A stretch of 64,000 bases of DNA from Arthrobacter ramosus (GTDB lineage Bacteria; Actinomycetota; Actinomycetes; Actinomycetales; Micrococcaceae): contig NZ_BAAAWN010000001.1 in the NCBI RefSeq assembly GCF_039535095.1, forward strand, positions 806,001 through 870,000, given 5' to 3'. The position numbers and the translations under genes were made by a program. Positions within the stretch are counted from its first letter, which is position 1. Each line of letters starts with the position of its first letter. Below, piece by piece: positions 10,660 through 41,636 of this stretch. The notes under the pieces were generated by a model. It did not search any database. It was not told the DNA's origin and worked only from the letters and a program-made list of their open reading frames with translations.

Positions 10660-11423
10660 TTGAATACACTTCCCCGGTCGATGACTCCTGTTGCGCCTGC
10701 AGCGGCACCCGAAGGCTCTTTGCTCAGATAAATGGTGCCGAACTCAACGGCGTACACGATCTTTTGGACGTCGACGGCGGAGCGTGCCACCGTGACGAGG
10801 TACCCACTCCCTGAGCCCGCGGTCTTGTTAGCGTTCAGGGAACCGCTGCTTGCCTGAGAGGTGGAACTTGAGTTGTCTGCAATCGTTCCATTGGCGTCCT
10901 GCACAGCGGTGACCAGGACTTTGTGGAATGTAAAGTTTGTCTGGTCAGGGGAGCTGGATTTGTCATCGGCTTTGAAGGACAGCATCACGCCGACTGTGTC
11001 GCCGGCCTTCACTGTTCCACCGACAGCGCGTTCGATCGGCAGCTTGAGGGTGACCTCCTGAAGTCCGGCAGGAACTTCAACCCGGCCCGGACCGGCCAAG
11101 CTGGTTGGATCGACCATCCGGGTCGCAAGCAATTGCTCACCGGGCATGAAGTCGATCGAAGAAACCTTGGAGCCGAGGTCCCCAAGATTGGTGACGCTGT
11201 CGGCCGCAATGGCTGACTTTGGCACAGACTTTTTGACGACGGAATCCCCGAAACCGGCCGTCGGAGTGCCAGCGGGAATTTCCTTTTGGATGACGTAGAC
11301 GTCTTCCGTTTCCGTATTTGCCAGAGCGCGCTTGTCGGCGCCCTGGACGTAGAACACGAGCATCACTGTTCCAATGATGGCTACGACAAGCGCAGCGATG
11401 CCTCCCAGTAGGCGTGTTTTCAC
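10656..11423 (-). CDS. cpaB: CpaB/RcpC-like pilus assembly protein
   Basis: 255 residues: an N-terminal membrane anchor (LLGGIAALVVAIIGTVMLVF), then a SAF-like region (DVYVIQKEIPAGTPTAG) and the RcpC/CpaB core (LQEVTLKLPIERAVGGTVKAGDTVGV). A Ser/Gly-rich insert lies at about 185-210. GTG 11423 is preceded by GGAAGGAAG; extending upstream adds about 149 residues of out-of-family sequence that overlaps tadG. In diderms CpaB works near the secretin; no secretin is seen here, as expected for a monoderm. Confidence 0.88.
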   Translation of the reverse strand: MKTRLLGGIAALVVAIIGTVMLVFYVQGADKRALANTETEDVYVIQKEIPAGTPTAGFGDSVVKKSVPKSAIAADSVTNLGDLGSKVSSIDFMPGEQLLATRMVDPTSLAGPGRVEVPAGLQEVTLKLPIERAVGGTVKAGDTVGVMLSFKADDKSSSPDQTNFTFHKVLVTAVQDANGTIADNSSSTSQASSGSLNANKTAGSGSGYLVTVARSAVDVQKIVYAVEFGTIYLSKEPSGAAAGATGVIDRGSVFK

Positions 11424-34188: not shown

Positions 34189-35274
34189 GTGTCTTCACAT
34201 CCGATTCGTGTCGCCATTGTCGGCGTAGGTAACTGCGCCGCTTCGCTGGTCCAAGGTGTCCACTACTATCGCGATGCCGACCCCCAGGCCACAATTCCGG
34301 GTCTGATGCATGTTGAGTTCGGCAAATACCACGTCAACGACGTCCAGTTCGTCGCTGCCTTCGACGTCGACAGCAAGAAGGTCGGCCTCGACCTCGCTGA
34401 CGCCATCGGCGCCAGCGAGAACAACACCATCAAGATCGCCGATGTCCCCTCCACTGGCGTGACCGTGCAGCGCGGCCACACCCTGGACGGCCTGGGCAAG
34501 TACTACCGCGAGACCATCGTCGAGGCCCCGGAAGAGGCAGTGGACATCGTCGCCGCACTGCGCGAATCCAAGGCCGACGTCATGGTCTGCTACCTGCCTG
34601 TCGGTTCCGAGGACGCCGCGCACTTCTACGCGCAGTGCGCCATCGACGCCGGTGTTGCCTTCGTCAACGCCCTGCCGGTCTTCATTGCGGGTACCAAGGA
34701 ATGGGCCGACAAGTTCACCGCAGCTGGCGTGCCGATCGTCGGCGATGACATCAAGAGCCAGATCGGTGCCACCATCACGCACCGCGTCATGGCCAAGCTC
34801 TTCGAAGACCGCGGCGTCACGCTGGACCGCACGTACCAGCTCAACGTCGGCGGCAACATGGACTTCAAGAACATGCTCGAGCGCGACCGCCTGGAATCGA
34901 AGAAGATCTCCAAGACCCAGGCCGTGACCTCCAACGTCGAGGCCGTCCTGCACGCCGACGACGTCCACATCGGCCCGTCCGATTACGTCGCCTGGCTCGA
35001 TGACCGCAAGTGGGCGTTCGTCCGCCTCGAAGGCCGCAACTTCGGCGATGCCCCGGTATCGCTCGAGTACAAGCTTGAGGTCTGGGACTCCCCGAACTCG
35101 GCCGGCGTGATCATCGACGCCATCCGCGCCGCCAAGATCGGCCTGGACCGTGGCATCGGCGGCCCGCTGCTCTCCGCTTCCAGCTACTTCATGAAGTCCC
35201 CGCCGGAGCAGTTCAACGACGACCTCGCCCGCGACAAGGTCGAGGCCTTCATCCGAGGCGACGTCGAGCGCTAA
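34189..35274 (+). CDS. ino1: Inositol-3-phosphate synthase
   Basis: 361 residues of the actinobacterial short form. Ino1 makes 1L-myo-inositol-1(3)-phosphate from glucose-6-phosphate with NAD as cofactor; the product feeds mycothiol and phosphatidylinositol. N-terminal NAD motif [16 protein letters not shown]; the catalytic region [15 protein letters not shown] and [22 protein letters not shown] are conserved. GTG start with AAAGGAG upstream. The leader (from about 34099) has a small hairpin (AGCGCC/GGCGCT). mshA, which uses the product, lies 3 kb downstream on the other strand. Confidence 0.97.
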
Positions 35275-35300: not shown

Positions 35301-35419
35301 GACGCTCGCTCACTTATATCGGGTTTTTGACTGACGCTCGCTCACCTATGTGGGGTTCTTGACTGACGCTCGCTCACCTACATACGTGAGCGGGCGTCTG
35401 TCGTTTAACGCTCGCTCAC
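35301..35419. repeat. Array A of the GTGAGCGAGCGT 32-bp repeat
   Basis: Five copies of the 13-mer: inverse orientation (GACGCTCGCTCAC) at 35301-35313, 35333-35345, 35365-35377 and, with one change, 35407-35419; forward orientation at 35386-35398. The first three are exactly 32 bp apart, with spacers such as CTATGTGGGGTTCTTGACT. Copies 3 and 4 face each other and form a 13-bp hairpin with an 8-base loop, possibly a terminator for ino1. The last copy touches the stop codon of the DUF559 gene. Confidence 0.92.
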
Positions 35420-36378
35420 TACACGGCGCTTGCAAAGCCGGATGCGACGGCGGGATCGACCCACGCCGATCGCAGTGCCTTCTTGATCTTCTTGGTCGCC
35501 AGCTCGAAACCATCCGCCAAATCGTCCTTGCGGAACACGAGGACGGTCCATCCCGCTGTTTCGAAGGCTTTGTTCCGGCGTCGATCACTGAGTGTCTGGG
35601 CCTCCGCGAGGTGATGGCCGCCGTCGTACTGAATGGCGACCCGCCTTTGGCGGAACCCCAAGTCGGCCGACGGCGAGAACGGATCGTCACTTCGCAACTT
35701 GAGTTGAAGTTCGGGTTCGGGGATTCCAGCGTCCAGCATAGCCAAGCGAAGCAGGGACTCAGGCGCGGAATCCGCGCCCACGCGCATCAGTTCGAGCGCC
35801 TGCCGGGCCCGCACGACGCCTTGTAAATTTGGATGCCGCTCCACCAGGGCACGCAGTTCTTCAAGGGTCGCGAACGGTGTGTCTCGTCCTTCCAGCGCTT
35901 GGCGGGGTACGCGAATCAGCTCGTCGCCCATACAGACGAGGTCGTTCAAAGGCAGCAGCCGGGCCATGTCCAGCCAAGTGCGGGGGCGCGTGCTGATCCG
36001 TATTCCATCAACCGATTCGACCTCGTTCTCGGCCGCGATCACCCTATGCCCGATCACCCCTTTGCGGCGCGCTCCAGGCACCGATCGCGGCTTGCTGAGG
36101 TGCAGCTCCGTTGAATCGGCAAGCCAAGGCGGAAGGCAGGAACAGCGAAGGCGCGCTGCCGTCACATGGGAGATCCAGGCCCCGGGGGTAGCGGCCGAGA
36201 GCGCACGGGCCGCGGACTCAAGATCGAAGTCCCAGCCGATCGGACGGTAGAGGCTTCGGCTGACGCGTTCGACGTCGGCGCGAAGCAGGCGATCGCGCGG
36301 GACACCTCGGGCTTGGGCCTGGGCGAGCGTGAAAGGTCCTGAAAGCAGTTCAGCGGGAAGGGCAAACTCGTTTCGCAT
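35419..36378 (-). CDS. DUF559 (Vsr-like fold) endonuclease-domain protein
   Basis: 319 residues. The N-terminal half (FTLAQAQARGVPRDRLLRAD) resembles the winged-helix region seen in AbiEi-like proteins and actinobacterial DUF559 proteins. The C-terminal third (about 205-300) is DUF559: PESLLRLAMLDAGIPEPELQ, then SADLGFRQRRVAIQYDGGHH and FETAGWTVLVFRKDDL. D239 and D252 fit the nuclease core, but the usual Glu of VEYDG is Gln250 here, so activity is uncertain. ATG 36378 preferred; TTG 36396 possible; neither has a good ribosome-binding site. Repeat arrays lie on both sides. Function unknown. Confidence 0.75.
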   Translation of the reverse strand: MRNEFALPAELLSGPFTLAQAQARGVPRDRLLRADVERVSRSLYRPIGWDFDLESAARALSAATPGAWISHVTAARLRCSCLPPWLADSTELHLSKPRSVPGARRKGVIGHRVIAAENEVESVDGIRISTRPRTWLDMARLLPLNDLVCMGDELIRVPRQALEGRDTPFATLEELRALVERHPNLQGVVRARQALELMRVGADSAPESLLRLAMLDAGIPEPELQLKLRSDDPFSPSADLGFRQRRVAIQYDGGHHLAEAQTLSDRRRNKAFETAGWTVLVFRKDDLADGFELATKKIKKALRSAWVDPAVASGFASAV

Positions 36379-36471
36379 ACCCGCATTGTTGCGCAAATGG
36401 GCGGGTGCCTGCAGAAGTTATCCACAGGCTCGGGATTCGGCTGTAGATTTTGTCGTCCTCGGGGGCCATGG

Positions 36472-36612
36472 GTGAGCGAGCGTTTCCCGAAAGTGCCCTA
36501 GAGGTGAGCGAGCGTTCCTCGAAAGTGCCCCATTCGTGAGCGAGCGTTCCTCGAAAGTGCCCCATTCGTGAGCGAGCGTCCCTCGAAAGTGCCCCATTCG
36601 TGAGCGAGCGTC
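36472..36612. repeat. Array B of the GTGAGCGAGCGT 32-bp repeat
   Basis: Five forward copies of GTGAGCGAGCGT(T/C) at 36472, 36504, 36536, 36568 and 36600, exactly 32 bp apart. The 19-bp spacers after copies 2, 3 and 4 are identical (CCTCGAAAGTGCCCCATTC); the first differs (TCCCGAAAGTGCCCTAGAG). The last copy overlaps the fhs stop codon (36611-36613). The array fills the space between fhs and the DUF559 gene. Confidence 0.97.
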
Positions 36613-38305
36613 AGAAGAGGCCGACCGGATTGCCGTGCTCATCGACGTCCATCCGCATCGCGGCGGGCTCCTTGGGCAAACCGGGCATGGTCATGACGGC
36701 ACCGGTCAGCGCGACAATGAAGCCCGCCCCGGTCTTGGGAATCAGCTCGCGCACGTGCACCGTGAACCCCTTGGGGGCACCCAACTGGGAGGCGTCGTCG
36801 GTGAATGAATACTGTGTCTTGGCCATGCAAACCGGCATTCCGCTCCAGCCATTTTTCCGGATGTCCGCCAGGCGCCTGAGCGCGGGGACGGAAAACTCCA
36901 CTCCGTCGGCGCCGTAGACTTCCTGTACGATCGTGCGGATCTTGTCCTCCACAGACAGGCTCAGAGGATACAAATGGCGGAAGTCCGACGGCGCTGCTGC
37001 CGCCACCGCCGCGGCGACCTTCGCTGCGAGCTCATCACCGCCGTCGCCCCCTCCACCGCGGCCCCAGACATCCGCCACAGCCGCCTGCACTCCCTCCTGG
37101 GCGCACCAAGCCAGTAGCCATTCGAGCTCTTCTGTTGTGTCCGTCGCGAATTTATTGATTGCAACAACCGGTGTGACGCCAAACTTCTCGACATTGTGCA
37201 CATGCCGTTTCAAGTTCTCGACGCCGGCAGCGAGCGCTTCGACGTTCGGCTCCTTGAGAAGCTCCTTCGGGACGCCGCCCTGCATCTTCAGAGCCCTGAT
37301 AGTCGCGACGACGACGACGGCGGATGGCGCCACGTCTGCGATGCGCGACTTGATGTCCATGTACTTTTCGGCCCCAAGGTCGGCGCCGAATCCCGCTTCG
37401 GTGACCACGATGTCCGCGAGCTGTTGGGCCGTTCGTGTGGCGATGAGCGAGTTGCAGCCGTGCGCGATATTGGCGAACGGGCCGCCATGCACCAGGGCCG
37501 GGGTTCCTGCGATGGTCTGCACGAGATTCGGCTTGATGGCGTCCTTCAGCAGCATGGTCAGCGCACCCTGGACACCGAGATCGGCCACGGTGACCGGCCG
37601 CCGGTCATAGCTGTACCCGAAGGTGATGCGGCCGAGGCGCTCGCGAAGATCATCCAAGTCCGTCGCGAGGCAGAAGACAGCCATGATTTCGGAGGCGACG
37701 GTTATGTCGAAACCGTCCTGTCGCGGCACTCCTTGAGCGGGTCCGCCCAGGCCAATGATGACCTCGCGCAGCGAGCGGTCGTTCATATCAAGGACCCGTT
37801 TGAAGGTCATGCGGCGGGGATCAATGCTGAGCTCGTTGCCTTGGAAGATGTGGTTGTCCACGAGGGCCATGAGGGCGTTATTGGCCGAGGTGATCGCGTG
37901 GAAGTCGCCGGTGAAATGCAGGTTGATCTCGTCCATGGGGAGAACTTGGGAGTAGCCGCCACCGGTCGCACCTCCCTTCATGCCCAGGATCGGTCCAAGG
38001 GACGGTTCGCGCAGCGCGATCATCACCCGGTGACCGGCCCGCGCCAAGGAATCGGCGAGGCCTACCGTGGTTGTCGATTTTCCCTCACCCGCCGGCGTCG
38101 GAGACATAGCCGAGACGAGGACTATCTTGCCCGCGCGTTTGGCATCCGGGAGACGGAGCTTGGCGGGATCGATTTTCGCCTTGAACCGGCCGTACAGTTC
38201 CAATGCATCGACGTTGATCCCGGCACGCCCCGCGATCTCCTCGATGGGACGTATCGCTGCGTTCTGGGCAATTTCAAGGTCGCTCAAGATCTTGTTTTCA
38301 GACAT
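36611..38305 (-). CDS. fhs: Formate-tetrahydrofolate ligase
   Basis: 564 residues, full length. It makes 10-formyl-tetrahydrofolate from formate, THF and ATP. The P-loop region is [57 protein letters not shown] and the C-terminal [10 protein letters not shown] are diagnostic. ATG 38305 with GAGGAC/AAGG upstream; extending to 38395 runs into repeat array C. It lies between arrays B and C. Confidence 0.97.
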
Positions 38306-38365
38306 CCTTGTCCTCAACTCCGTGCGGAACACTGTCCGCGACAATCTATCAGTCGGGTCCCCGAG

Positions 38366-38474
38366 GTGAGCGAGGGTTTGGGGAATTGACTTCATAGGTG
38401 AGCGAGCGTTTGGGGAATTGCCCTTATAGGTGAGCGGGCGTCGCCGGGAGGGGGCTTATAAGTGAGCGAGGGTT
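38366..38474. repeat. Array C of the GTGAGCGAGCGT 32-bp repeat
   Basis: Four forward copies at 38366, 38398, 38430 and 38462, exactly 32 bp apart, with changes at two core positions (GTGAGCG[A/G]G[C/G]GT). Spacers are TGGGGAATTGACTTCATAG, TGGGGAATTGCCCTTATAG and GCCGGGAGGGGGCTTATAA. The last copy shares one base with the mshA stop codon. The array fills the space between mshA and the fhs leader. Confidence 0.96.
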
Positions 38475-39718
38475 TAGCTTGGGCGGACGAGGACCGCACC
38501 GATGGCTGCGTGGTAGCTCTCGAGCGTGATGGCTGCTGTCCTGTGCCAGCCGAAGGCCTCCGCATGAACGGCAGCGGCACGGCCCATGTCTTCGCGGGTG
38601 CGGGGATCGTCGTACAAGGCTTCGATGACGTCGGCCCAGCGGGAGGGATCGTGGCCGTCAACCAAAATACCCGTCCGCCCGTCGGCAACGGCACGGGACA
38701 GGCCGCCCACGTTGGTAGCCACCACCGGGGTGCCGCAGGCCTGCGCCTCAAGGGCAACCAGCCCGAACGATTCGCTGAAGGAAGGCATCACGACGACGTC
38801 GGCCGAACGGAACCAGCCCGCCAGCTTCGGCGCCTTGACCGGCGCGCGGTGCGTTACGACGTCGTCGAGCCCCGCGGCCGTAATGAAGGACTGCAGATTG
38901 AAGTCCTTGGCGCCGCTCAAGGCGCCCAGGATGGTGAGTTCGAGGTCGATGTCTGGCCGCCTCTTGCGGAGGATGCCAACAGCTTCGATGAAAACCTGCG
39001 GGCCTTTGAGCCGCTGGATGCGTCCGGCGAAGAGCAGGTGGAAACTGCCGGGCCGCACGCCAAGCTCGGCGCGGGACCGGGCCCGGAACGCGGGAGTGAA
39101 CACGGTCAGGTCAACGCCGGGGGGAGCGATGTCGATATGGTCGAAATCGGCGTCGTAGTGCGATACAAGCTCCTGGGCTTCGGCGGGAGTGTTGGCCACG
39201 AGGCGCGTGGCTCCATCCACGATCCTCTGTTCGCCGTCTTCACGCACTCGCGGTTCGGGCCGCTCGCCGGATTCGAGCACCAGGTTCTTGACCTTCGCCA
39301 TCGTGTGCATCGTGTGGATCAGCGGCACGTTCCACAATGCGGAGAGTTCAAGGCCGGCCACACCGGACACCCAGTAGTGCGAATGGATGGCGTCGTAACG
39401 GCCGTGCGGTTGCCGCTGCCGGATCCTCTCGACTTCGGCAACCATGGCGTGGAGGAGCTCGGGAAGTTCCTCCTTGGGCAGTTTCCGGGGCGGGCCTGCC
39501 AAGACGTTGTGGACGCAGACACCCGGACCGGGATGCTCGACGGCGGGCTGCCCGGCGGACGTCGAACGCGTGAAGATCTCTACCTCCACGCCGAGATCCG
39601 CCAACGCGATGGCCAGCGCCCGGACGTAGACATTCATGCCGCCCGCATCGCCCGAACCCGGCTGCTCCATGGGCGAAGTGTGGAGTGACAGGAAGGCAAC
39701 GCGACGGATCAACGACAC
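38474..39718 (-). CDS. mshA: D-inositol-3-phosphate glycosyltransferase MshA
   Basis: 414 residues, GT4 family. MshA joins GlcNAc from UDP-GlcNAc to inositol-3-phosphate, the first committed step of mycothiol synthesis. Family landmarks: FLSLHTSPMEQPGSGDAGGM at the N-terminus, SHYWVSGVAGL, LLFAGRIQRLKGPQVFIEAV and the EX7E motif in SFSESFGLVALEAQACGTPV. GTG 39718 has the strong ribosome-binding site TAGGAGGT. The enzyme uses the product of ino1, 3 kb away, and UDP-GlcNAc from the glmS/glmM route in this window. Confidence 0.96.
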   Translation of the reverse strand: MSLIRRVAFLSLHTSPMEQPGSGDAGGMNVYVRALAIALADLGVEVEIFTRSTSAGQPAVEHPGPGVCVHNVLAGPPRKLPKEELPELLHAMVAEVERIRQRQPHGRYDAIHSHYWVSGVAGLELSALWNVPLIHTMHTMAKVKNLVLESGERPEPRVREDGEQRIVDGATRLVANTPAEAQELVSHYDADFDHIDIAPPGVDLTVFTPAFRARSRAELGVRPGSFHLLFAGRIQRLKGPQVFIEAVGILRKRRPDIDLELTILGALSGAKDFNLQSFITAAGLDDVVTHRAPVKAPKLAGWFRSADVVVMPSFSESFGLVALEAQACGTPVVATNVGGLSRAVADGRTGILVDGHDPSRWADVIEALYDDPRTREDMGRAAAVHAEAFGWHRTAAITLESYHAAIGAVLVRPS

Positions 39719-41564: not shown

Positions 41565-41636
41565 GCGGCGCTTACCTCCAATCGACCCGCTCACCCCAGT
41601 CAACCCGCACGCCGTCGCGGCACTAGAATCGTGAGG

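Follow-up and report, generated by a model that had tools for sequence, protein, structure and literature searches.

Inverted 32-bp repeat arrays frame a DUF559 gene in Arthrobacter ramosus and its relatives: a candidate two-part nuclease and repeat system

A 64,000-nucleotide stretch of the Arthrobacter ramosus genome (assembly GCF_039535095.1, contig NZ_BAAAWN010000001.1, positions 806,001 to 870,000; hereafter the window) carries three arrays of a 13-mer core, GTGAGCGAGCGTY, repeated with a 32-bp period. Two of these arrays lie on either side of a gene for a DUF559 protein. We propose, with a probability of roughly 0.6, that the arrays are the non-autonomous repeats of a two-part system and that the DUF559 gene, a candidate sequence-specific nickase, is its other part. 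Gene and arrays occur together across the bacterial family, most copies of the gene are framed by inverted arrays, the three cores that were counted exactly are numerous only in genomes whose gene carries them, adjacent units are near-copies of each other, and cores have been replaced at fixed sites. The first-pass annotation of the window, made from the letters alone, had suggested a dispersed family of tandem repeats. This part of it holds, while the DUF559 partner, the bilateral form of the arrays and their species-specific cores had been overlooked.

Results

Co-occurrence of gene and arrays

Across 245 genomes of the family we counted a core-free pattern of the 32-bp lattice and searched for the protein (G numbers denote genomes, G000 being the source genome and the others compared genomes; L numbers denote loci). 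At least four lattice pairs were present in 25 of the 27 genomes with a homologue of at least 56% identity, versus 2 of the 218 without one (p 1e-29, kinship ignored; both cut-offs were chosen after the lists had been seen). The same picture was obtained within single genera, with 13/14 versus 1/4 genomes in g1 (p 0.02) and 12/13 versus 0/2 in g24 (p 0.03). Backward lattice controls mostly gave 0-2 pairs. G198 and G076 are the two gene-bearing genomes below this count; G076, which has a single lattice pair, has a stop in its gene. The association between gene and repeat is strong. The arrays are present in other species, so the earlier description of a repeat family is not refuted by confinement to one strain.

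Exact counts of three cores across the gene-bearing genomes indicate that cores go with the gene that they accompany. The five genomes whose gene carries GTGAGCGAGCGTY have 115, 24, 71, 77 and 68 copies of it, and the 22 other gene-bearing genomes 0-3; beside the gene of G152 it is exact on one side and a variant on the other. GCAACCGAGCGTY is found 32 times in G221, 11 times in G096 and 6 times in G182, all of which have it beside a gene (flanking it in G096 and G182, whereas in G221 it was seen only upstream). It occurs 0-1 times in 21 others, among them G076, whose broken gene carries a variant of it. GTGCTGCCGCGTY reaches 25 copies in G231, where it lies on both sides of the second gene, with 0-3 copies in 24 others and 0-6 in the backward control. 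G231 therefore holds two paralogues with two different cores.

As a marker of the whole family the 13-mer GTGAGCGAGCGTY is misleading, because most gene-bearing genomes without it carry the lattice with another core. A near-unique family, as suggested by a pattern found in 3 of 396 genomes of the order, was rejected for a related reason: that pattern was core-specific.

Framing of the gene

Arrays lie on both sides of the DUF559 gene, beside ino1, in G000, G128, G170 and G231. In G152 the gene is likewise flanked on both sides, at a locus away from ino1 and with two-mismatch variants as upstream cores. Among 16 further printed homologue loci (56-78% identity), 15 have arrays of about 32 bp period with other cores beside the gene; most of these cores end in GCGTY (G063 and G137 vary), and G096 shows them on one side only in print.

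An automatic test for arrays of at least two units covered 108 loci, 80 of them named and 28 from further genomes, with some doubles. It found arrays on the left at 85 loci, on the right at 70, and on both sides with the same core at 57. Reversed sequence gave 27 left, 9 right and none on both sides, and in windows further out arrays were detected 16 times on the left and 5 times on the right. Among the 80 named loci the counts were 61 left, 52 right and 41 both with the same core, and a second rule found framing at 50 of the 80. Sixteen loci that failed the automatic rule were read by eye, and 13 of these are flanked on either side by inverted cores, which are in part degenerate.

Core replacement at orthologous sites

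For each of 47 arrays of G244, G217, G227, G063 and G152 we checked whether the fetched part of G000 contains a homologue of a flanking gene and, at the corresponding end of it, an array. By reading, 15 arrays are shared (at ten G000 sites), 11 have the homologue without an array (two of these cases are ambiguous), and for 21 the fetched part contains no homologue. Nine of the ten shared sites were compared; the other species have GTGAGAGAGCGTY-like cores there, and G000 has GTGAGCGAGCGTY or near variants. The array at the 764-kb site is common to four species. Within the fully fetched region at 4.68-5.25 Mb, 4 of the 10 mappable arrays are shared, at three sites. Orthologous sites without arrays also exist (six unshared sites printed). 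Orthologous sites thus carry different cores, and therefore cores have been replaced genome-wide, with many sites persisting and others coming or going.

The DUF559 protein

The gene (35419..36396, minus strand) encodes 325 aa, with an AbiEi-like N-terminal half and a Vsr-like/DUF559 nuclease C-terminus. PF04480 (DUF559) matched all 20 aligned homologues and REase_MTES_1575 matched 19 of them. The AbiEi models of PADLOC matched 20/20, Pfam AbiEi_4 only 4/20 and weakly, and the mREase_II model weakly matched one (E 0.0014); an NCBIfam scan of the homologues returned weak DUF559 and Vsr matches only. Residues D245, Q256, D258, G259, H262, D271, R273 and R274 are identical in all 20, and D245, Q256, D258, H262 and D271 look, from the alignment, like catalytic-type residues. 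The one relevant solved relative is 3r3p, a 'Mobile intron protein' that we take to be I-Bth0305I; its profile match is weak (E 0.18), the next match being an antibody chain (E 0.89). DUF559 proteins were found in 30 of 31 scanned genomes, with 1-6 copies each.

The mutual information between protein and core, calculated from the 64 sequences that remained once proteins with stops had been removed and a 97% filter had taken out near-identical ones, is highest at residues 261, 108, 118, 119, 152 and 269, uncorrected for kinship.

At 47 of the 80 named homologue loci, ino1 lies within the fetched flank, and because of this shared neighbour we regard the homologue locus as inherited. Upstream of the nuclease gene lies GTGGATAACTT (36415..36425, minus strand), which is present within 250 bp upstream of 70 of the 80 named homologues and nowhere else in the 438 kb of these loci. 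It resembles a DnaA box, and any role of it is putative.

Other copies of the protein have repeats of their own. A paralogue of 51-52% identity in G000 (L293, G000:C1:703356-704243) lies beside a long hairpin (AACGCGGGGTCACTTACGGCCCATG...), seen downstream only. In G137 (L306) a paralogue of the same identity has this hairpin on both sides, another repeat family of a like sort. The gene and arrays were also met in L287 (NZ_JADHDY010000002.1), labelled Sporosarcina beigongshangi REN13. This contig was likened to C12 of G211, which belongs to this actinobacterial family; its public label appears to be mistaken.

The repeat family in the A. ramosus genome

The exact 13-mer occurs 115 times in the 5.25-Mb G000 and its reversed pattern 0 times, far above chance. 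The contig ends overlap by about 33 kb (offset 5,217,948; near-identical where compared; L031 and L068 are the start and 5217949-5251250), which gives a true length of about 5.218 Mb. Because of this overlap, one of the 115 cores is a double and 114 are distinct. G182:C1 shows a like sign of overlapping contig ends, with identical lattice pairs at 10773 and 4351517.

All 115 exact cores fall in the 1.02 Mb that was fetched, including the whole of 4.68-5.25 Mb; clusters without an exact core outside this part would go unseen. With sites of up to three mismatches at lattice distances also taken as cores, G000 has 65 clusters or, minus two doubles in L031, 63 clusters with 267 cores. Cores lie on both strands in 34 of the 63 and on one strand in 29. 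A typical bilateral element consists of minus-strand cores 32 bp apart, a centre, and plus-strand cores 32 bp apart, and the centre has an 18-bp spacing (5-bp loop) in 14 of the 34.

The positions of 61 clusters relative to genes were determined with a simple codon-score gene caller, some calls of which are surely wrong; two L031 clusters and two clusters without a called gene on one side were left out. None of the 61 lies inside a called gene, in line with the dispersed intergenic family described before. They fall between convergent (24), tandem (26) and divergent (11) genes, against 136, 472 and 117 among 725 gene pairs, a convergent excess with p 3e-4. Cluster edges that point outward number 87: 56 of them face the 3' end of a gene and 31 the 5' end. 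Of the 35 inward-pointing edges, 18 face a 3' end. For the 56 outward edges at 3' ends, the median distance to the stop codon is 16 bp, and eleven overlap it, which bears out the earlier suspicion that arrays sit mostly at gene 3' ends.

The clusters are also unevenly distributed along the chromosome. With dnaA at 4.85 Mb, 0 of the 47 exact-core clusters lie in 1.515-3.410 Mb of G000 (36% of the chromosome, a fraction taken from this gap itself), and 2 of the 47 lie in the terminus-proximal 36%. Across nine genomes, 18 of 157 clusters lie in this terminus-proximal fraction, with 56.5 expected; these clusters were typed from listings, some of them partial and some with chance matches. Genome by genome, the avoidance is significant in G000 and G182 only. 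Old arrays retained in a stable origin half would explain the gap as well as any function.

The 19 bp between cores had been described as array-specific. Identity is indeed higher within clusters than between them (0.63 versus 0.44), and 26% of same-cluster pairs are at least 0.89 identical, yet a weak genome-wide consensus exists: over 157 units it is G/C-rich with an A-rich middle, and YATA precedes the next core. The near-identical adjacent units point to growth by tandem copying, as previously suggested. They also set the arrays apart from clustered regularly interspaced short palindromic repeats (CRISPR), in agreement with the first-pass annotation, as CRISPR needs unique, dissimilar spacers.

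Parts of three bilateral arrays fold as RNA far better than shuffles (z -6.3, -4.9 and -9.7); U-tracts, as in an intrinsic terminator, were judged by eye only. The only one-armed array that was folded, array B of the window, gave z +1.2, and 177 of 200 shuffles fold as well. Since array B lacks such a fold, a hairpin in RNA is improbable as a feature common to all arrays and was rejected as an essential one; the duplex 13-mer could be that common feature.

Two observations concern other elements at array sites. One insertion sequence (IS) end abuts array cores (GTGAGCGRGC) at three places (L087, L050 and the end of cluster 4360730 in L078), two of which carry an rve-type transposase gene; this IS may favour the repeats as targets. 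Another short repeat (GCGCAAAC / GTTTGCGTG) is intergenic at ~4913.1-4913.2 kb and 644.2 kb of G000, where other species have arrays.

Arrays in the window

A search of both strands with up to two mismatches recovered the 14 cores (GTGAGCGAGCGTY and close variants) reported before, every one of them within the three arrays. At this loose threshold, 14 matches in 64 kb are modestly more than in shuffles (mean 6.0; 14 reached in 2/100). The part that is not due to chance is the order of the cores and their genome-wide number, not the loose count in the window.

Array A (35301..35419, minus strand, five cores) forms the left flank of the nuclease gene. Its minus-strand cores at 35301, 35333 and 35365 keep the 32-bp period, and a plus-strand core at 35386 and a minus-strand core at 35407 follow. 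Array B (36472..36612, plus strand) forms the gene's right flank with five cores, and array C (38366..38474, plus strand) lies behind the mshA stop codon with four; both are one-armed with a 32-bp period. The exact period once ascribed to all three arrays thus applies throughout B and C but in A only to the first three cores, the other two being set in 21-bp steps. The terminal core ends overlap stop codons as first described, at 35419 with the DUF559 gene, at 36612 with fhs and at 38474 with mshA.

The neighbouring host genes are ino1 (myo-inositol-1-phosphate synthase; 34189..35274, plus strand), fhs (formate-tetrahydrofolate ligase; 36611..38305, minus strand), which lies between arrays B and C, and a glycosyltransferase gene (38474..39718, minus strand), named mshA in the first-pass annotation, with array C at its 3' end. 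Rfam had no matches in the window at gathering scores. At 41569-41608 there is an 18-bp tandem repeat with CGCTCACCT, possibly a decayed relative of the core.

Wider family

For more distant homologues we looked for an inverted segment, with a score of at least 15, common to both flanks, and used the flanks of different loci as null. At distant loci the flank ends were set by the match and not by a gene call, and one of the 80 loci was dropped for its short flank. Close homologues have such a segment at 46/79 loci (null 0/316), homologues of 44-54% identity at 13/16 (null 2/64) and those of 29-36% identity at 14/26 (null 0/104). In this last group, the 14 positives comprise two from G009, which belongs to the same genus, and 12 of the 24 loci from other families; L322, the only representative of another class, scored 13. 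Thirteen other Micrococcaceae loci from a PF04480 search include three with an inverted flank segment (null 0/52). Some of the distant flank repeats are hairpins and others are 32-bp arrays with other cores. In a sample of the phylum, 18 of 396 genomes have a homologue at E 1e-20. Judging by these flanks, the proposed nickase and repeat system may reach well beyond the Micrococcaceae.

Discussion

Proposed mechanism

We infer that the DUF559 protein recognises the 13-mer and nicks there, and that repair of the nicks copies arrays and adds units. Repair would start from nicks in two inverted arms or where a replication fork runs into a nick; in the inverted arms, the nicks would fall on opposite strands to the left and right of the centre and so produce a staggered break. 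Repair could then copy another array into the site, leading to spread and homogenisation, or add a 32-bp unit, leading to tandem growth. If the specificity of the protein drifts, copies throughout the genome would be overwritten in step. Insertions behind stop codons would do the least harm, and the bilateral form may double as a two-way transcription terminator. Such an operation would resemble that of REPINs, inverted pairs of repetitive extragenic palindromes (REPs), and their REP-associated tyrosine transposases (RAYTs), with a nuclease replacing the transposase.

A more general proposal is that Vsr-like nickases, each framed by its repeats, provide a second, RAYT-independent route by which arrays are inserted, amplified and overwritten genome-wide, a shift in specificity dragging hundreds of sites along. 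We put this forward tentatively, at somewhat less than even odds.

Several observations weigh against a nuclease that acts on its own repeats. G198 has the gene and 0 lattice pairs. Conversely, G086 has 9 pairs and no homologue at E 1e-50, and G216 has 8 with only a 49% homologue, which is flanked by its own 32-bp arrays. Some lattice counts are inflated, with control/count values of 75/141 in G024, 24/100 in G211, 6/10 in G096 and 6/24 in G208. The commonest lattice core of G182, CTGCAGGAGCGTC, is not beside its gene, and 0 of the 54 listed lattice pairs of this genome lie within 20 kb of its four homologues; our guess is that an older gene, since replaced, could explain this mismatch. The G123 gene shows no array frame, the second copies L246 and L279 are without a clear one, and L237 is without a downstream one. 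Framing is not exclusive to the nuclease either. In G000, arrays also lie on either side of several other genes, and when 10 of 21 listed open reading frames of this kind were scanned, no enzyme class recurred except two copies of one IS transposase. The covariation between protein and core is a lead only, being uncorrected for kinship and scattered along the protein instead of concentrated in one region. Finally, distant relatives have the framing with weak or absent expansion (400 kb each): G642 has 0 exact cognate cores and G264 has 2, in one further array.

Alternative explanations

The arrays might instead form an immobile host regulon: selected binding sites of the DUF559 protein that change with its specificity. 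The protein would then act as a transcription terminator or roadblock, or as an mRNA 3'-end or nucleoid factor. The outward edges facing 3' ends close to stop codons, the convergent excess with no cluster inside genes, the folding of the three bilateral arrays, the conservation of some sites across species and the avoidance of the terminus by exact-core clusters all fit such a role. We nevertheless consider it unlikely, as nuclease-type residues are invariant, the gene itself is framed by inverted arrays as mobile units are, gene-bearing genomes have anywhere from 0 to 141 lattice pairs, array B shows no fold, and orthologous sites without arrays exist. There is a still smaller chance of a defence or addiction module, in which the nuclease would use the repeats as a reference for attacking DNA, with host arrays serving as tolerance marks or decoys, and the repeats would accumulate as by-products. 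The AbiEi-like half matched by PADLOC models in all homologues, together with the weak mREase_II match, would suit a module of this kind, as would the DNA damage response driven by the DUF559 protein VsrA in Caulobacter (PMC12907096). Its scanned neighbours in the window, however, are metabolic genes, and neither the 32-bp lattice nor the bilateral arms are accounted for.

About equally improbable are ordinary two-way terminators grown by slippage, among which the DUF559 gene lies by chance or shared synteny. This would agree with the position of 47/80 homologue loci beside ino1 and with those further genes of G000 that have arrays on both sides. However, the gene is framed in G152 too, at a locus away from ino1, and in G137, which has only 4 lattice pairs; the G231 paralogues have different cores, and slippage would not replace cores in step. 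The co-occurrence counts and the cognate cores put this reading under further strain. The least probable option, to which we give almost no weight, is that the repeats are REPs moved by a Y1 (IS200-like) transposase. The layout is the same, with inverted intergenic repeats, a high copy number and a framed gene (PMC2817692). PF01797, on the other hand, has 0 matches in G000 and is matched in only 2 of 34 genomes (G113 and G231), in a search that does match 5 of 14 control genomes; a RAYT partner was therefore rejected for G000 at this sensitivity.

Comparison with known systems

If the arrays and the DUF559 gene do form a two-part system, DUF559 proteins gain a testable candidate DNA substrate, and the homologues, each with its core, make up a natural set of pairs from which DNA recognition could be read out. 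Such a system also poses an evolutionary puzzle: tens to hundreds of sites change sequence together, many of them staying in place. The partner described for REP repeats is the RAYT, with none given for the CGTC class in the available part of PMC3733652, and a nuclease with its own repeats offers another. A link between DUF559 and repeats was not found in the titles and abstract openings of our literature search, outside which most subscription papers lie.

The nuclease domain is of the same family as that of the Vsr mismatch endonuclease and of Caulobacter VsrA, which is responsible for the SOS response in a methyltransferase mutant (PMC12907096). VsrA differs in being linked to cytosine methylation, and the accessible part of that source describes no repeats. 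The EDxHD homing endonucleases, a family named in PMC6083498, may share the Vsr-like catalytic fold, as suggested by DUF559 and the weak 3r3p match (E 0.18). Around the gene studied here, in contrast to I-Bth0305I, no intron or intein was seen; its N-terminus is AbiEi-like, and its presumed site is present in tens to hundreds of copies in its own genome.

CGTC-tagged REPs have been reported, in the available part of PMC3733652, without a dedicated transposase. Like them, the repeats studied here are intergenic without an associated RAYT, their bilateral arrays are palindromic, and their core ends in GCGTY. By eye, no GTAG tag was noted on the cores, and the GCGTC/GCGTT end lies within the stem, whereas in CGTC REPs the tag is unpaired; the connection is a lead only.

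The closest parallel in layout is provided by the REPs, bacterial interspersed mosaic elements (BIMEs) and REPINs, known together with the RAYT transposase (PMC2817692, PMC3733652, PMC3116915), whose genes, according to PMC2817692, invariably lie between two inverted REPs. A REP survey of 2025 tabulates Arthrobacter livingstonensis with counts (PMC12306157); the main text of PMC3733652 has no occurrence of Arthrobacter, actinobacteri- or DUF559. Both systems have short, high-copy, intergenic inverted repeats, often behind genes, both have a framed gene, and in both the repeat varies with the lineage of that gene. They differ in that the enzyme here is a Vsr-like DUF559 nuclease and not a Y1 transposase, and in that the units form 32-bp tandem lattices whose cores differ at fixed orthologous sites. 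No match to the Y1 transposase that defines REP/RAYT was obtained in G000, yet the A. ramosus system has the REP/RAYT layout.

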